A DNA stretch of 64,000 bases. It comes from an uncultured Verrucomicrobiota bacterium (GTDB taxonomy: Bacteria > Verrucomicrobiota > Kiritimatiellia > CAIVKH01). The notes under the pieces were generated by a model. The model worked only from the letters and a program-made list of their open reading frames with translations. It made no database searches and had not been told where the DNA came from. The DNA lies in the NCBI GenBank assembly GCA_937872895.1, contig CALMUP010000004.1:1-64000 (forward strand). The letters run 5' to 3'. The translations under genes were made by a program, and so were the position numbers. Shown piece after piece: positions 7,240 to 57,236 of this stretch. Position 1 is the first letter of the stretch; each line of letters starts with the position of its first letter.

Positions 7240-10200
7240 TTACTCGAGGGTGGTGCCGATGACACCGGGCTGGCCGACGCGCACGCGGTAGTACCGGTAC
7301 TGGCCGAGTGGGGCGGAGTACTGCGGTCCGAGTTTGCCGTCGATGCCACCCCAGTCGGTGACCGGCTGCCACGGGTACGCGTTGAGGTCGTTGCTGGCTT
7401 CGACGCGGTACAGGCGGTCGGGGCGGCTGGTCCAGGAGAGCTCGATGCGGCCGTCCATGATGACGGTCTCGACCGCGAGCAGCGAGGTGTGGTCGAGCGG
7501 ATCGGTGGCGGCGACGATCTCCTCCATGTCCATCATGCCGTCGGCATCGCTGTCGGCGGCGAACGGATCGGTGCCGAGGTGGTATTCGGCGAGGTTGCTC
7601 AAGCCGTCCTGGTCGTGGTCCTCGTCGGCCATCGTTCCGGAGAGCAGGTCGATGCCGTAGCGGGCTTCCCAGCCGACGAGCAGGCGGCTGGCCCCGGCCT
7701 CCGAACCGGTCACCACGGTTACGCTGTAGGCGCGGGTGCGTTCGTGCATGGTGATGCGGTAGGTCGCGGCGGGCAGGCCGGTGAGGCGGACGTTGCCGCC
7801 CGACGATTCGAGCCAGCCATTCAGCGGGGCGGAGGTGCCGGGTTGGTCGTTATCGCCCCAGTTGGTGCCCCAGCTCCCGTTTGCTGCGAACTTCAACTGC
7901 ACGTCACCGCTCAACACGAAGGTGCCGGACCAGGTGTAGTCGCCGATCACCTGCAGGTTGTTCGCGGCGGGGTTCCATCCGTTCATCGTGCCGGCCACGG
8001 CGACGGCGGTGAAGTCGCGGGCGAACGTGCCGCCGATCTTGGTCACGGTGTAGCGGCGATCGGCGTCGTTGTAGCGGATGCGGTAGGTTCCGGCGCCGGA
8101 GGAGACGGCGATGTTGCCGCCGGATTGCTCGGCGATGCCGTCGTTGTTGTTGTCGCCGAAGTTCAGCGACCAGTCGCCGTACACATCGAACTTGAAGCGC
8201 TCGTTCGATGAGCTGCCGAAATTCGCCTCGGTTTCCCACACATTGTTGCTCACCAGGGTCATCAACTGGCTGCCCCAATTGTTGTGCGAGCCGCGCAGGT
8301 ACACCTGCGGGTGGACCTTGTTGAAGCCGCCTGCCTGCTGGGTGATGGTCACGGTGCCGGTGGACATCGCGCCGTTGTTGTCGGTCACCCGCAGGCGGAA
8401 GGTGTACACGGCGTTGTTGGTCTGGCTGAGCAGGACCACGGTGGCGTTCGGGCTGCCGGGGTGTGCGTAGGAAATAATGGCGAACGGGCCGGAGGCCTGG
8501 GTCCAGGCGTATTCGGAAATCGTGCCATCGGGGTCGTAGGAGCCGCTGCCGTCGAGGTAAACGGTGGCGCCGCCGAGGCCGTTGATGGTCTGGTTCGGGC
8601 CGGCGTTGGCGACCGGGGGTTGGTTCACGGTTTCCTTGGTGGCGGTATAGCGGCGGGTCTGGTCGTTAAAGCGCACGGTGTAGGTGCCGGCGCCTTGCTG
8701 GAAGGCGATGTTGCCGCCGGACTGGTCGGCCCAGCCGTCGTTGTTGTTGTCGCCGAAGTTCAGGCTCCAGTTGCCGTACACGTCGAACTTGTAGTTCTGG
8801 GTACCGCTGCCGACGACCACGGTCACTTCCCATGTGTAGTTGCTGACGAGGTTCATGAGCTGGGTGCCCCATCCGTTCGGGGTGCCGCGGAAATAAACCT
8901 GCGGGTAGGTCTTCTGGTAGGTGATGGTCGAGGTCTGGGTGACGGTGGTCGTCGCGGTGGCCGAGGCGCCGCGGTTGTCGGTGACGGTCAGGCGGACGCG
9001 GGCGACGCGGCTGCTGATGGTCGGTGCGGTCCACTGGACGGTCGGGGTGGCGGTGGAGGCGTCGGTCATCCAGACCGGACCATCGGAGCCGTCGATGATC
9101 GACCAGGCGTAGCTGGTGATCTGGCCATCGGGATCGTAGGAGCCACCGCCGTTCAGGGTGACCGGCTCCATCTGGTAGGTGGTGACGTTCGCGCCGGGCA
9201 CGGCCACGGGCGGGACGTTCGGGACGATTTTCGTCACGGTGTAGCGGCGGGTCTGGTCGTTGAACTGGATGCGGAAGTTGCCGTCACCCTGGGTGAGGGC
9301 GATGTTGCCGCCGGACTGGTCGGCCCAGCCGTCGTTGTTGTTGTCGCCGAAGTTCAGGGACCAGTCGCCGTAGACATCGAACTTGAAGCTGGAGGCGCCG
9401 GTGACGGCGACATCGAGCTGCCAGGTGTAGTTGGTGACGAGGGCCATGGCGGTGGTGCCCCAGCCGTTCGGGGTGCCGCGGAAGAACACCTGCGGGTAGG
9501 TCTTCTGGAAGACCTGGCCGGCGAGCTGGGTCACGGTGGTGGTGGCACTCGCGGAGGCCCCGTGGTTATCGGTCACGGTCAGGCGGACGAGGGCGGTACG
9601 GTTGCTCGTCGAGGGGGCGGTCCAGCGGACGGCGGGGGTGCTGGCGTTGGCGTTGTCGAGGACAACCGGTCCGCTGTTCGGGTTCGGGATGATCGACCAG
9701 GCGAAGGCGGCGATCGAGCCGTCGGGATCGTACGACGCGGTGCCATCAAGGGTCACCGGGTTGATGCCGATGGTGGAGCGGGCGGGGCCGGCGAGGGCGA
9801 CGGGGGCGACGTTGTTGGTGGGGACGCGGTCGAGGTGGTCGAGGTAGTTCGGGAGCAGGTTCGCGTTGGCGTCGTCGTCGGAGAGGTCGCCGTTGCGGTT
9901 CATGTCCTCGTCCCAGTTCCACAGGCCGTCGCCGTCGGCATCGGACTGGTCCACAATGGTCACGGTTTCGGTTGAGAAGGAGTAATTCACGAGGTACGAG
10001 CTGTGGGTCAGCAGGAACACCATCACGGTTTCGTTGCCTTCGGGAATGATGTCGTTGATGGGCCGGATCGGCAGTTCCACGGTGGCGACGCCGGCGGGGA
10101 TGGTGATCGAGCCGGGGAGTTGGGCGTAATCCAAGCCGTTGATGGCGGTGCCGGCGACGCTGTACTGGACGGTCAGCGGGCTGTGGGTCGGTCCGGTGCG

Positions 10201-12189
10201 GTGGAACGTCAGGAGGCCGGAGGCGGCCGGGCCGGTCACGCCTTCGACGGCGCGGTTGCGGATGTATTCCAGGGTGACGATGGGTTTGCTGCCGTGTTCG
10301 GTGGTGGCGGTGAAGCCGGCGAGGCGTTGCTGGGCGTTGGAGCCGTAGTGCTGGAAGTGCAGGTAGGGGGTGGCGCGGGAGAGGGCGATGCCGGGCGCGG
10401 TGTGGGCGCTGTCGATCACGGTGGTGTTGTTCACGCGCAGCGTGGCGCGGTCGAGGGTGAAGGCGGCCTCGACGCGGGGCATTGCGCCCTGGTGCAGGTT
10501 GTTCACCCAGGCGGTGGCGAGCGGGGTGGTGTCCCATCCGGGCGCGCCGGTCCAGCTGGTGCGGGTCCAGACGGCGTACTTGTCGAGTACGCTGATCGTC
10601 GGGAGGACGGAGCACTGGAGCAAGTCCACGCGGGCCGAGGACTGACCGCGCTGGTAGGTGATTCGGAAGGCAAGGCGGCCATTGGCGACGGCGTCGTCGC
10701 TGAGGTCGAAGCTCATGAACTGGTCGGAGCCGTAGAGTTCGCGCACGCCGATGAACAGTTCGTTGAAGTCGGAAAAGCCGGTGCCGGCCTTGGTGTCGTA
10801 GTCGAAGGCGAGCACGACCTTCTTGCCGGGTTCGGTGAGGTTCACGCGGGCGAGGTCGCCCCAACCGTTGCGCAGGTCCACGCTGACGCGGCCATGGCCG
10901 CGGTTGCCGGTGACGTGGATGACGCCGTTGTGGTTGCTCGGGGTGGTGTAGTCGAGCAGGTCGAAGGCGGTGTAGGCGGCGGAGACGCGGAAGAAGCGAG
11001 GGTCGAGAAAGTGGGGTACGGAAGAGGGGCCGTTTACGCGGACGGCCGGGGGCAGGTTGGTCATCGAGAAGTTCGGTTCGTAGGACGGATCACCGGGGTA
11101 GGTTTCGGCCAGGGCGACGGCGGCGGCGAAGTCGGCCACCGGGTAGCGGAGGCCGGTGTAGATGTCATCCGTGAATTTCGCGGAGCGTTTGAGGATGCGG
11201 TCCATCTGGCTCACCCGCAGCCAGCGTCCGGTATGGGTGTTGATGTAGGCTTGCTGGACGAGGGTCGCGCCGCCAGCGAGGAACGGCGAGGCGAGGGAGG
11301 TTCCGCCGATCGATTGGTCGTAGGCGTTGTCGGGGCCGATGGTCTTGACCACGTAGTCGGTGAATATTGTCTCCTGGTTGCGCTGGCTGCCGGTAGCTTC
11401 GGCGCGGCCGATGGTGGCGGTTTCGAGGGTCAGGCCGCTGACCACCAGGTCATAGCCGTGTTGCTCCACCCAGCGAACGCTGGCGCGGTGGGGGGAGTAG
11501 CCGCCCACGATCATGCGGTCGGCCGAGAGGTAGGAGAACGAGTTGCCGGCGGCGTTCACGCCGATCACGCCGCTGTTGCGGCGGGTCGTGCCGTCGATCA
11601 TGGACCAGCCGGTGAAGCTGCGGTTCATGACCACGGTGCGGTTCGGATTGCCGTCGGGGACGAGGCTCAGCAGGAGGTTGAAGTTCTCGGTGTCCCCGGC
11701 GAGCACGAGGCGCGCTTTCGGGGCGGCGCCGAGGCTTTCGCCAAACGGACCGCGTTCGCCGGAGGCGGCCGCGCCGGTCACCCAGGTGCCATGGTAGCCC
11801 CAGATCAACGGCTTCAGCGGGTTGTTCATGCTCACCGGCAAGGTGAATGATTCGGGAGACTCGTATCCGTGCTTCATCTGGTAATAGGCCTTGGCGGCGT
11901 ACTCGCGGTGGGCGGACATGAAGATACGCGGGTTGGTGCGGTTCAAGTGGGGGATGGAGGACTGGTTGTTGAACCATTCGGTATAGACCTTGCCGCCGGT
12001 CCAGCCGAGGCCGGGGTGGGTTACATCGAATTCGGTGTCGCTCACGCCGATGGTCAGGCCTTCGCCGGTGAGGTGGGGGTGGGAGGTCTCCAGCGCGGTG
12101 AGGCCGAAGAAGGATCGTTCCTGGGAGTCCAGGGCGGAGGTGGTACTGGCGGTGGCGAGCAGCAGGGTGGTGAGAAGGGCACGTTTCAT
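7240..12189 (-). CDS. Secreted subtilisin-like (S8) protease with PKD and carbohydrate-binding-like modules
   Basis: This 1649-residue exported protein has a signal peptide at 1-19. The peptidase S8 domain (about 40-370) has a complete triad: D51 in GVSDTEFD, H134 in YHGTWVTG and S299 in GGTSLASP, with NAAGN as the oxyanion region. A beta-rich region and a Calx-beta domain (INGLDYAQLPGSITIPAG) follow, then three alternating PKD domains (SYDPDG...YAWS) and modules of the type FRGTPNGWG...FDVYGDWSLNFGDNNNDG. Those modules resemble SusE/X25-like starch-binding domains. A fourth, divergent copy follows. Residues ~1500-1649 are a C-terminal module with W-x-x-RYG, EF-hand-like DQDGLSNLAEY and a beta sandwich. 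It probably acts outside the cell or at its surface on glycan-bound protein. Confidence 0.9.
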   Translation of the reverse strand: MKRALLTTLLLATASTTSALDSQERSFFGLTALETSHPHLTGEGLTIGVSDTEFDVTHPGLGWTGGKVYTEWFNNQSSIPHLNRTNPRIFMSAHREYAAKAYYQMKHGYESPESFTLPVSMNNPLKPLIWGYHGTWVTGAAASGERGPFGESLGAAPKARLVLAGDTENFNLLLSLVPDGNPNRTVVMNRSFTGWSMIDGTTRRNSGVIGVNAAGNSFSYLSADRMIVGGYSPHRASVRWVEQHGYDLVVSGLTLETATIGRAEATGSQRNQETIFTDYVVKTIGPDNAYDQSIGGTSLASPFLAGGATLVQQAYINTHTGRWLRVSQMDRILKRSAKFTDDIYTGLRYPVADFAAAVALAETYPGDPSYEPNFSMTNLPPAVRVNGPSSVPHFLDPRFFRVSAAYTAFDLLDYTTPSNHNGVIHVTGNRGHGRVSVDLRNGWGDLARVNLTEPGKKVVLAFDYDTKAGTGFSDFNELFIGVRELYGSDQFMSFDLSDDAVANGRLAFRITYQRGQSSARVDLLQCSVLPTISVLDKYAVWTRTSWTGAPGWDTTPLATAWVNNLHQGAMPRVEAAFTLDRATLRVNNTTVIDSAHTAPGIALSRATPYLHFQHYGSNAQQRLAGFTATTEHGSKPIVTLEYIRNRAVEGVTGPAASGLLTFHRTGPTHSPLTVQYSVAGTAINGLDYAQLPGSITIPAGVATVELPIRPINDIIPEGNETVMVFLLTHSSYLVNYSFSTETVTIVDQSDADGDGLWNWDEDMNRNGDLSDDDANANLLPNYLDHLDRVPTNNVAPVALAGPARSTIGINPVTLDGTASYDPDGSIAAFAWSIIPNPNSGPVVLDNANASTPAVRWTAPSTSNRTALVRLTVTDNHGASASATTTVTQLAGQVFQKTYPQVFFRGTPNGWGTTAMALVTNYTWQLDVAVTGASSFKFDVYGDWSLNFGDNNNDGWADQSGGNIALTQGDGNFRIQFNDQTRRYTVTKIVPNVPPVAVPGANVTTYQMEPVTLNGGGSYDPDGQITSYAWSIIDGSDGPVWMTDASTATPTVQWTAPTISSRVARVRLTVTDNRGASATATTTVTQTSTITYQKTYPQVYFRGTPNGWGTQLMNLVSNYTWEVTVVVGSGTQNYKFDVYGNWSLNFGDNNNDGWADQSGGNIAFQQGAGTYTVRFNDQTRRYTATKETVNQPPVANAGPNQTINGLGGATVYLDGSGSYDPDGTISEYAWTQASGPFAIISYAHPGSPNATVVLLSQTNNAVYTFRLRVTDNNGAMSTGTVTITQQAGGFNKVHPQVYLRGSHNNWGSQLMTLVSNNVWETEANFGSSSNERFKFDVYGDWSLNFGDNNNDGIAEQSGGNIAVSSGAGTYRIRYNDADRRYTVTKIGGTFARDFTAVAVAGTMNGWNPAANNLQVIGDYTWSGTFVLSGDVQLKFAANGSWGTNWGDNDQPGTSAPLNGWLESSGGNVRLTGLPAATYRITMHERTRAYSVTVVTGSEAGASRLLVGWEARYGIDLLSGTMADEDHDQDGLSNLAEYHLGTDPFAADSDADGMMDMEEIVAATDPLDHTSLLAVETVIMDGRIELSWTSRPDRLYRVEASNDLNAYPWQPVTDWGGIDGKLGPQYSAPLGQYRYYRVRVGQPGVIGTTLE
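8040..9500 (-). repeat. Intragenic ~595-bp repeats encoding PKD plus binding module
   Basis: A nearly invariant stretch beginning GCCGTCGTTGTTGTTGTCGC recurs at 8137, 8734 and 9328, spacings of 597 and 594 bp. Each marks one PKD plus carbohydrate-binding-like unit of about 198 residues. The DNA is most conserved over the FGDNNNDG loop. Confidence 0.8.
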
Positions 12190-52926: not shown

Positions 52927-53012
52927 TAGCGGACGGTGCGTCACGTAACTCCGCATGGGGCGGGTGGAAACACCGAAGGAATCGCGCAGGCGAGCAGAAA
53001 GAGGTCGTGGGT

Positions 53013-56000
53013 ATGGGCGTTTTCACCGGTCGTGTCGTTAAACCGCTTTTGTGCATCTTGTTGTCGTGCTGGAGTTTGGCCGAGGTGCGTGCCGCCGTGG
53101 TCAATGCCGGCAACGTGACCGGGGTCAGCATCACCACCAATGCCTCGAACGGCAACCTGACCTACTCGTTTGCGCTGAGCGGTGGCGGTTCGTCGGAAAT
53201 CACCGTCTATGCCCCGGACGTGATCCGCGTGAACTACCACTGGGCCGGTCCGTTCGACACCGCGCAGCCGATGATCGCGAAACCGCTGAACGACTGGAGC
53301 GGCACCACATCGACGCTGTCCGACCTGGGTTCGACCTATGTCATCGCCACCACGCAACTGGATGTCGAGGTCGTGAAGTCCCCCTACAAGGTGCATTTCA
53401 AATCGAAGGGCGGCTACTACCTGCTGCAGGACGATTTCACCGAGCGCGATGCCGATTACAACTATACCGGCCAGCGCGGCACCGGGTCGTCGAAGCTGAA
53501 GAACCGGAAGATCTTCCCGGCCAACCAGGCGATCTTTGGCCTCGGCGAGTACGGCGGACCGATGAACCGCCGCGGCCGCGAGTTGGATATCTGGAACACC
53601 GCCACCTACAACTGGGGCGAGTTCACCAACCCGACCTACATGATGATCCCGTTCTACTACGGCATGCAACCGGCCTCCGGGGGCAACCCGGCCTTCGTGT
53701 ACGGCGTGTTCCTGAACAATCCCTGCCGTCCGCTGTTCAAGTTCGGCACCGAGACCGGCGACCGCTATTCGTTCCAGATGGGCGACGGACGCCTCGACTA
53801 CTTCTTCTTCGGCGGCTCCTCCGCGCACAGTTTCCCGAAGGTCATCGACCGCTTCTCCGAACTCACCGGGCGTCCGACCTTCCTGCCCAAGTGGGGCATC
53901 GGCCACCACCTGTCCCGCTTCAGCTACGACAACCAGAACTGGGTCGAATACATCGCCAACGAGGCCACCGCGACCGATATCCCGCTCGATGCCGTGTACC
54001 TCGACATCGACTACATGGATGCCAACGCCGACGGCAACATCGGCGACGGCCAGTTGCGCCAGTTGACCTTCAACTCGAAGTTCCCCAATCCCGCCTCGAT
54101 GATCACCTACTGCCAAACCCGCGGCGTGAAGGTCGTCCCGCTGATCGAGCCCTGGCTGATCCCCGGCGATGTCCTCCACACCGAGGCCAACAACAACCTG
54201 CACTTCATCAAGGACAACGCCGGCAACACCGTCACCCGCGGCATCTACGTCGGCAACGTCTCCTGGTTCGACTACTCCAGCACGCCGATGAACCAGTGGT
54301 GGGCCCGCAAGATCACCAACTGGTTCCACCAGGTCCCCATGGACGGCATCTGGAACGACCTGACCGAACCCGAGGGCGGCGACCAGATTCCGCACAATGC
54401 GCTGCTGTGGGTGGACGGCCAGTTCGGCACCTCGAACACCGATTCGCGCCGTTTCTGGTCGAACGAGCGTAACTACTTCGGCCTGCGCTGCGCCCGCCAG
54501 AGCTACAACGCGATGCTGGACCGCGCGCCGAACAAGCGCCCGTTCGTGCTCAGCCGTTCCGGCAACGCCGGCCTGCAGCGCTTCGGCGTGAGCTGGAGCG
54601 GCGATACCCGCGCCGACTGGTTCTACCACCGCGCCACCATCCGTTTCGGCATGGGCGCGATGATCGCCGGCGCGGCCTGGTACGGCAATGATGTCGGCGG
54701 CTTCGCCGGCACCGCCTCTCCGGAGCTGATGGTCCGCTCCACCGAGGCCAACTGCCTGACCCCGTTTTTCCGTAACCATTGCGACAAGAGCGCGGCCAAC
54801 CGCGAACCGTGGCGCTTTGATGAGCCGTTCCGCAGCATGCAGCGCGAGCTGATCAAGTTCCGCTACCGCCTGATGCCGTACTTCTACACGCTCGCCTACG
54901 AATCGACGATCACCGGTGAGCCGATGAATGTGCCGCCGGCCTTCGACTACTACACCGACGCGAACACCCACGGCGAACAGAGCGACTACAACTTCCTCGT
55001 CGGCGACTACATCCTCGCCGCGCCGGTGTATGCCCAGGGCGCCAGCACCCGCCAGGTGTACCTCCCCTACAAGGACGGCATCCACTGGTACTACTGGCAC
55101 AACAACGCCCGCCACGAGGGCGGCCAGACCGTCACCGTCAACGCCCCGCTCGGCACGCTGCCGCTGTTCGTCCGCTCCGGCGCGATCATCCCGATGGGCC
55201 CTTCGATGCAGTACGCCAACCAGTTCCAGGCCCCGTGGATGGACATCAACTGCTGGCCCGACGGCCAGAGCGAGTTCACCCTGTTCGAGGACGACGGCGA
55301 GACCTGGAACTACCAGGGCAACGGCTTCTCCAAGCGCCGCATGGTCAGCAACCGCACCGCCGCCTTCTGGGACTTCACCATCGAGGCGAAGCAGGGCACC
55401 TACAACACCGGCACCCGCGATTTCTACGTGTACTGCTACAACCCCGGGACGAACGTGGTGAAGAGCGTGCGGCTGAACGGCACGGCCCTGCCGCAGCTCG
55501 CGAACTTCAATGACGGACCGCAGGGCTGGCGCTTGGCCGACGGTCGTATCGGCGTGAAGCTGCCCGACACCGGCACCGAGGCGGCGATCCGCGTGACCTT
55601 CGCCGATGTCGAGGATTCGCTGCAGTTCGAGTGGCCGACCTATGCCCTGCCCGAGAACAGCGCCTTCCTGCGCGCCTACGTGACCCGCACGGGCAGCGCG
55701 ACCGGCGCGGTCAGCGTGGCCTTCGCCACCGCGAACGGCTCCGCCACCGCCGGGGCCGACTACGTCGCCACCAACGGCACGCTGTCGTGGGCGGCCGGTG
55801 ACCTCGCCGCCAAGTTCATCGATGTCGTCCTGACCGATGACACAATCTACGAGGGCAACGAGACCTTCACCATCCAGGTGAGCAGCCCGGCCGGCGCGGT
55901 GCTCGGCACCCCGTCCCTCACCACCGTGACCATCCAGGAAAACGAGGCGGTCCCGCCCGCCCTCGTCGTCACCAATCCCGCCAACGGCGCGGTCGTGGCC

Positions 56001-57236
56001 AGCGGCGTCTCGAACATCACCCTGCAGGGTGTCGCCAACGCCCTCGAGTGGACCGGCCTGCGCTGGAGCAACAGCCTGACCGGAGCGTCCGGCTCGGCCC
56101 CGATCGCCTTTTACTGGAGCATCGCCGACGTCGCCCTCGCCGCCGGCACGAACCGGATCACCGTCACCGCCACCAACGCCGGTGCGGCCGTGCTGGCCCG
56201 CGACAGCGGCACCAACGCCGCCTACGCCGACGGCTGGGCCACCAACGACAACGGCGGTTTCGGCTGGGGCCCGTGGGTGATCTACACCAGCTCGACCGAC
56301 CCGAACCGCAACGGCCGCTTCATGGCCGACGTCGCCGCGGTGAACATCGGTCGCCCCGCCTGGGGCCTCTACGCCAACCAGGGCAACCTCTCCGAGGCCA
56401 AGCGGCAACTGACCAACACCCTGGCCGTTGGCCAGACCGTCTCGGTCAGCATGGACAACGGATTCCTTGAGGGCGGCGCCGGCACCGGCGTGGCCTTGCA
56501 GAATTCCGACGGCGTGACCCTGTGGGAGTTCTTCTTCAACGGCGGCGACAATTATTACAGCATCAGCGGCGGCACCACCGATGTCGGCTGGACCAGCGGC
56601 GGCCTCGACGTGGCCTTCACCCTCACCGGCCCGACCACCTACCGCGCCCTGATCACGCCCTATGGCGGCAACACCCGTACCAATACCGGCAGCCTGATCG
56701 CCGCCGCGAACAGCGACATCCGCCTGTTCCGCGCCTGGAACTTCAACGCCGGCGCCGGCTCCGACTACGACTTCTTCTTCAACAACCTGGCCCTCAGCGG
56801 CACGGCTGGCGGCGCGACCGGCGTCGTGGTCAATGTCGTGCGTGGCGGCGAAGGCCAGATCCCGCAGGCGTGGCGCGACCGGTACAACCTCACCGGCCCG
56901 AACTCCGGCGATGCCGAGGACATGGACGGCGATGGCGTGAGCAACCTCGACGAGTACATCGCCGACTCGAACCCGACCAACAGCGCCTCGTTCTTCGGCC
57001 GCGTCGGTGCACCCGCCACCACGCCCGCCACCGGGGTGGTCGTTACCGTGATGATCCAGGCCCCGACCACCAACAGCCGCCTCTACGACCTGTCGTTCAG
57101 CGCCGACCTGATGGGCGACACCTGGACGCCGCTCGGCCTGAACGTGCCCGGCGCGGCGAACGGCGATGCGGTCATGCTCAACGTCACCAACAACGGCGCC
57201 GGCGGCCACTACCGCGCCCGGGTGTTCCTGCCATGA
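53013..57236 (+). CDS. Secreted GH31 alpha-glycosidase with Calx-beta and C-terminal anchoring-like module
   Basis: This 1407-residue exported enzyme has a signal peptide (about 1-27). The GH31 domain spans ~30-850, with nucleophile D449 in DGIWNDLTEP and acid/base D531 in SWSGDTRADW, pointing to alpha-glucosidase or alpha-xylosidase activity. A Calx-beta domain lies at ~870-980 and further beta modules to ~1270. The C-terminal ~125 residues have WRDRYNL, a calcium-binding DMDGDGVSNLDEY loop and a beta sandwich, matching the end of the subtilase at 7240. GAGG 8 nt before the ATG at 53013 supports this start over GTG 53007. A LacI-type operator suggests sugar induction. Confidence 0.92.
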   Translation: MGVFTGRVVKPLLCILLSCWSLAEVRAAVVNAGNVTGVSITTNASNGNLTYSFALSGGGSSEITVYAPDVIRVNYHWAGPFDTAQPMIAKPLNDWSGTTSTLSDLGSTYVIATTQLDVEVVKSPYKVHFKSKGGYYLLQDDFTERDADYNYTGQRGTGSSKLKNRKIFPANQAIFGLGEYGGPMNRRGRELDIWNTATYNWGEFTNPTYMMIPFYYGMQPASGGNPAFVYGVFLNNPCRPLFKFGTETGDRYSFQMGDGRLDYFFFGGSSAHSFPKVIDRFSELTGRPTFLPKWGIGHHLSRFSYDNQNWVEYIANEATATDIPLDAVYLDIDYMDANADGNIGDGQLRQLTFNSKFPNPASMITYCQTRGVKVVPLIEPWLIPGDVLHTEANNNLHFIKDNAGNTVTRGIYVGNVSWFDYSSTPMNQWWARKITNWFHQVPMDGIWNDLTEPEGGDQIPHNALLWVDGQFGTSNTDSRRFWSNERNYFGLRCARQSYNAMLDRAPNKRPFVLSRSGNAGLQRFGVSWSGDTRADWFYHRATIRFGMGAMIAGAAWYGNDVGGFAGTASPELMVRSTEANCLTPFFRNHCDKSAANREPWRFDEPFRSMQRELIKFRYRLMPYFYTLAYESTITGEPMNVPPAFDYYTDANTHGEQSDYNFLVGDYILAAPVYAQGASTRQVYLPYKDGIHWYYWHNNARHEGGQTVTVNAPLGTLPLFVRSGAIIPMGPSMQYANQFQAPWMDINCWPDGQSEFTLFEDDGETWNYQGNGFSKRRMVSNRTAAFWDFTIEAKQGTYNTGTRDFYVYCYNPGTNVVKSVRLNGTALPQLANFNDGPQGWRLADGRIGVKLPDTGTEAAIRVTFADVEDSLQFEWPTYALPENSAFLRAYVTRTGSATGAVSVAFATANGSATAGADYVATNGTLSWAAGDLAAKFIDVVLTDDTIYEGNETFTIQVSSPAGAVLGTPSLTTVTIQENEAVPPALVVTNPANGAVVASGVSNITLQGVANALEWTGLRWSNSLTGASGSAPIAFYWSIADVALAAGTNRITVTATNAGAAVLARDSGTNAAYADGWATNDNGGFGWGPWVIYTSSTDPNRNGRFMADVAAVNIGRPAWGLYANQGNLSEAKRQLTNTLAVGQTVSVSMDNGFLEGGAGTGVALQNSDGVTLWEFFFNGGDNYYSISGGTTDVGWTSGGLDVAFTLTGPTTYRALITPYGGNTRTNTGSLIAAANSDIRLFRAWNFNAGAGSDYDFFFNNLALSGTAGGATGVVVNVVRGGEGQIPQAWRDRYNLTGPNSGDAEDMDGDGVSNLDEYIADSNPTNSASFFGRVGAPATTPATGVVVTVMIQAPTTNSRLYDLSFSADLMGDTWTPLGLNVPGAANGDAVMLNVTNNGAGGHYRARVFLP

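Follow-up and report, generated by a model that had tools for sequence, protein, structure and literature searches.

An FN3-like C-terminal beta domain on unrelated exported proteins of a Kiritimatiellia bacterium: a candidate targeting or retention tag

Two enzyme genes and their C-terminal ends

The window (the whole 64,000-nucleotide stretch that was analyzed) belongs to an uncultured bacterium of the class Kiritimatiellia, the genome of which is a 3.87 Mb draft in 51 contigs. Two of its genes are considered here, one for a GH31 enzyme and one for a subtilase. The GH31 gene (53007..57236, plus strand) was determined from the ORF and Pfam to encode a signal peptide, GH31 domains, a DUF5110 domain, a Calx-beta domain, and a C-terminal module. 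The subtilase gene (7240..12189, minus strand) was determined in the same way to encode a signal peptide, an S8 domain, PKD and AMPK1_CBM-type repeats, and a C-terminal module. Both reading frames are intact, and the C-termini are real and in frame. Pfam detected the catalytic domains, the Calx-beta domain, and the PKD/starch-binding-type repeats, and found nothing at the ends of the two proteins except TSP3_bac below threshold. The PKD and glycogen/starch-binding-type repeats of the subtilase (AMPK1_CBM/X25 type; window 7700-9900, minus strand) are unusual next to a protease domain.

The end of the GH31 enzyme consists of WRDRY, DMDGDGVSNLDEY, a beta-rich part, and HYRARVFLP followed by the stop at 57236. 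Its TSP3-like calcium-loop linker (WRDRY...DMDGDGVSNLDEY) spans 56853..56990 on the plus strand, and the D and E columns of this linker were invariant in the genome profile described below (A1). The terminal FN3-like beta domain follows at 56991..57233 (plus strand) and runs up to the stop codon. The end of the subtilase consists of WEARY, DHDQDGLSNLAEY, a second DxDxDG loop, a beta-rich part, and RYYRVRVG with a short tail. TSP3-like unit 1 (WEARY...DHDQDGLSNLAEY) lies at 7561..7674 on the minus strand, corresponding to amino acids 1511-1548 of the stop-to-stop ORF, and unit 2 (DSDADGMMDMEE), recognized from family and profile matches, lies at 7492..7560 on the same strand. The terminal FN3-like beta domain (7267..7491, minus strand) ends 8 residues before the stop codon. 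Both beta domains were assigned by profile, AlphaFold2, and fold search.

When the two ends alone were compared by pairwise BLASTP, the alignment had an E-value of 4e-5 with 30% over 115 columns and was driven by the calcium loop. Because this alignment was only modest, the claim was tested across the genome. Each end matched a profile built from 44 genome copies, the two ends themselves included, with an E-value below 1e-22. These values and the intact frames confirm the statement in the first-pass annotation that both enzymes share C-terminal elements. Its description of these elements as one module stood in part: both parts are real, but the calcium loop can be separated from the beta domain, which alone is tied to the C-terminus.

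Distribution and anatomy of the module

The subtilase end, used as a query, identified 82 places in the source genome. Profile A1, built from 44 of these, gave 137 matches in the same genome, and translation of the fetched regions yielded 72 copies of the beta domain in 71 proteins. The domain forms the end of about sixty exported proteins of this genome that are otherwise unrelated. The stop codon was no more than 8 residues away in 63 of the 72 copies, compared to an expectation of approximately 1.5% for uniform placement. Among other genomes of the class and phylum, all of the sampled copies (42/42) ended 0-8 residues from the stop, in a sample of 40 loci picked by best profile scores and not by position. 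Modules placed anywhere in proteins would have spoken against the sorting reading of the first-pass annotation, and the module is almost always terminal. Within a sample of 145 genomes, profile matches were present in 47/47 class genomes and in 47/98 other members of the phylum. Many of the latter genomes have a single weak match, which probably represents an Amuc_1099-type protein, based on the scores, on family hits, and on four loci in which the match lies inside a protein of 348-351 amino acids. One tblastn search of plasmids gave no match, and one scan of genome contigs with the whole subtilase found only relatives of the subtilase repeat region, in other phyla. An end module common to two unrelated enzymes, as originally proposed, extends to dozens of unrelated exported proteins throughout the class.

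Exceptions to terminal placement were found. In two DUF1800 proteins the module lies close to the mature N-terminus (L053:2091-5627 and L057:4611-7337), and in one ORF of 2011 amino acids it lies 515 residues before the end. One protein contains an additional, internal copy, and two weaker hits also fall at internal positions. These cases show that a strict C-terminal code cannot account for every copy.

Carriers include, besides the GH31 enzyme and the subtilase, two GH13 alpha-amylases, a C25 peptidase, a cyclophilin, a glucose/sorbosone dehydrogenase, and endonuclease/phosphatase-family, RCC1, and FG-GAP proteins; many have no Pfam domains. A crude home-made test assigned signal peptides to 54/66 carriers and to 69/261 other, neighboring genes, the latter being unannotated ORFs, so that the background rates are rough. 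In most of the 12 carriers that failed, a plausible signal peptide is seen from a start site deeper in the frame, or one with a weak n-region. Cytoplasmic proteins among the profile hits would have spoken against a link to export, and no carrier was clearly cytoplasmic.

A two-gene cassette was also observed, in which an exported C25 peptidase that lacks the module is directly followed by an exported protein of approximately 270 amino acids ending in a TSP3 unit and the beta domain. It occurs twice in the source genome and also in genomes G053 and G044 (L065:4052-8261; L063:5487-9106; L210:658-3693; L213:208-3365), and in G071 and G121 both genes lie close together. The module is fused to a C25 peptidase at another locus of the source genome, and a frame of 7424 codons ending at 55656 of G000 C22 (L049, L215) has a C25 peptidase domain with the module at its end.

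The first half of the module is a helix with W (90%) followed by a D-x-D-x-D-G loop and E. TSP3_bac (PF18884) matched 33/44 members (best E-value 3.4e-12), covering the calcium loop only, and this loop is predicted to bind calcium. Because the TSP3 unit was also found by itself within proteins and as part of a pilus/secretion component, it is a generic unit; since the calcium loop can be internal, only the beta domain is specific to the terminus. This second half has about 75 residues, and no Pfam or NCBIfam family covers it in the 64 members scanned. Its strongest constraints are a Y after [G/N]-[R/K] (92%) and a Y-R near the end (R 86%). A last strand, F/Y-Y-R-V-x-V, closes the chain, which stops 4-7 residues past the conserved Y-R in 74/105 copies. 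The terminal residue is proline in 68% of the copies from the source genome and 55% of those from other genomes, compared to 17% of other ORFs. The C-termini finish in a polar beta strand, and none has a terminal hydrophobic helix or basic tail.

AlphaFold2 modeled the whole module with a pLDDT of 88.7 and the beta domain with 82.3. The model that included the TSP3 part gave ambiguous fold matches, whereas the beta domain alone matched FN3 domains: fibronectin FN3-6, CtXyl5A, and the FN3 domains of the pectate lyases PelI and Pel3. With TMq up to 0.62, rmsd of 2.4-3.0, and E-values of 0.01-0.7, these matches are evidence at the level of the fold only. The PelI and Pel3 domains were among the best by TM-score (TMq 0.62), and CtXyl5A was equally good. 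FN3 is a very common fold. A discoidin-type relation, suggested by profile similarity to a chitosanase domain (E-value 0.003), was dropped as weak and partial. Searches of the literature, mainly of its freely readable part, revealed no description of such a C-terminal domain in this clade. Taken together, the module is predicted to end in an undescribed domain of FN3 fold, normally after a calcium-type TSP3 linker.

A possible terminal tag and its candidate readers

Both the terminal position and the constraint on the chain end were seen in two samples, which points to a role that depends on the chain end, for example in targeting, passage, or retention. The reading that we favor, though tentatively and at a little short of an even chance, is that the beta domain is a terminal targeting or retention tag, probably linked to type II secretion (T2SS). 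The signal peptides suggest that a carrier would be exported by Sec; it would then fold in the periplasm, and the domain, whose final strand lies at the free chain end, would be recognized. Recognition would lead to passage of the carrier across the outer membrane and to its retention at or close to the cell surface. The reader would most likely be the T2SS that the genome encodes. The source genome has four secretins, and its T2SS operon contains GspD, E, F, J, and K with PilM/PilN-like genes, GspD scoring over the NCBIfam cut-off. This operon lies approximately 1.2 kb from a module gene, and among the routes looked for in the genome it is the only near-complete one that takes folded proteins across the outer membrane. 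PF03934 was discarded as a T2SS marker, as it has matches in Bacillus and misses the GspK of the source genome; the T2SS was read in the source genome alone. In the PelI FN3 domain, loop 3 is known to act as a T2SS secretion signal, and how the T2SS recognizes its substrates is still an open question (PMC7949064). The N-terminal copies in DUF1800 proteins, the internal copies, the commonness of FN3, and the N-terminal position of the PelI FN3 count against the favored reading. It is doubtful that a terminal FN3-like domain is a general, portable T2SS secretion signal across a whole bacterial class; if it were, many proteins would share one signal for a machine that recognizes its substrates in a way not yet understood.

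The domain might instead bind a surface or glycan, keeping secreted enzymes attached to the envelope of the cell itself or to their substrate, with no role in crossing the outer membrane, and the terminal place would then reflect fusion at a free end. FN3-like and similar small beta domains are frequent non-catalytic parts of secreted enzymes. We regard this as quite possible, if somewhat improbable: the CtXyl5A fold match, the weak profile similarity to the chitosanase discoidin-type domain, and the N-terminal module of the two DUF1800 proteins, which fits attachment, all agree with it, but most conserved positions look structural (Y, W, L, V) or consist of R/K and residues of the chain end, the sequence shows no evident conserved patch of aromatics for binding, and ordinary binding modules lack so strict a placement at the final residues. 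A very improbable reader is the pilus/secretin cluster resembling Amuc_1098-1101, to which cargo could dock like to like through the TSP3 unit of the 1099-type subunit. The 1099-type protein of the source genome contains DTDGDGMPDVWEEQYGLNP...DLDGDGFSNLEEF and lies inside a PilM/1100/1099/secretin operon, and the NCBIfam model of the 1099-type family matches 42/44 cargo modules; what is shared, however, is the generic TSP3 unit alone and not the beta domain, and the presumed Akkermansia genus, named by an Amuc_1099 family match (E-value 1e-100), keeps the 1099-type subunit with no C-terminal modules found. The cluster of the source genome (Amuc_1101/1100/1099/1098-like, L065:13113-19823) holds another of the four secretins, and its 1099-type subunit contains a perfect TSP3 unit.

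C25 is the family of PorU and the gingipains, and C25 peptidases that may carry the module are present, which would suit a type IX-like translocon reading the domain as the type IX system (T9SS) reads its C-terminal Ig-like domain. The logic is the same, with a terminal beta sandwich of about 75 residues on Sec-exported proteins (PMC5445135), but such a translocon is very unlikely. A SprA profile, run with no positive control, matched 0/145 genomes. Scans of 44 and of 64 module members, up to an E-value of 1, yielded no match to a T9SS sorting family. C25 peptidases, present in 17/47 class genomes, are missing from the other 30, module-rich ones included. This absence from module-rich genomes led us to reject a C25 peptidase as the universal sortase. 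Least probable of all is processing of the carriers by an exosortase or other intramembrane sortase. Three exosortases scored over the cut-off in the source genome and matches were found in 45/47 class genomes; however, the module lacks the hydrophobic helix and basic tail, the presumed Akkermansia genus has an exosortase and no C-terminal modules, and genome G068 has modules and no detected exosortase. No PEP-CTERM-like tail turned up when 0.91 Mb of fetched sequence was searched with a simple pattern; the tails of the exosortase substrates may be of a variant type, or the substrates may be encoded elsewhere. Exosortase-family genes were located at G000 C38:34418-35173, C38:10558-11313, and C19:63446-63919 (L152, L153, and L154).

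The dedicated secretion or anchoring route proposed in the first-pass annotation is supported in part, by a shared, almost always terminal, class-wide module on exported proteins; its dedicated translocon or sortase is hypothetical. One uncatalogued domain on about sixty unrelated exported proteins, found class-wide, is a testable candidate signal for secretion or surface retention. As a terminal tag, the module would allow these bacteria's extracellular proteins to be recognized directly from sequence, and it could be put to use in surface display.

Comparison with known systems

TSP3_bac (PF18884) matches the calcium-loop half of the module and does not include the terminal beta domain. The T9SS C-terminal domain is also a terminal beta sandwich of approximately 70-80 residues with a constrained chain end, on many unrelated Sec-exported proteins (PMC5445135). 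In contrast, the module has no sequence match to it, is predicted to be FN3-like, usually has a TSP3 loop in front, and has two copies near a mature N-terminus, and SprA was not found (no positive control). The first suggestion that the module differs in sequence from type IX sorting domains is supported. The PEP-CTERM/exosortase and GlyGly-CTERM/rhombosortase systems likewise place one C-terminal tag on many proteins, and exosortases are encoded in the source genome; their tags are short, with a membrane helix and a basic tail, whereas the module is a folded domain that has neither. In its predicted fold (TMq 0.62) the module resembles the FN3 domains of PelI and Pel3, two pectate lyases secreted by the T2SS, and like them it sits on exported enzymes; the likeness is at the level of the fold. 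These domains are N-terminal and occur in one enzyme family, whereas the module is C-terminal on dozens of unrelated proteins. The PelI FN3 carries a T2SS signal (PMC7949064), and the module may itself be recognized by the T2SS.
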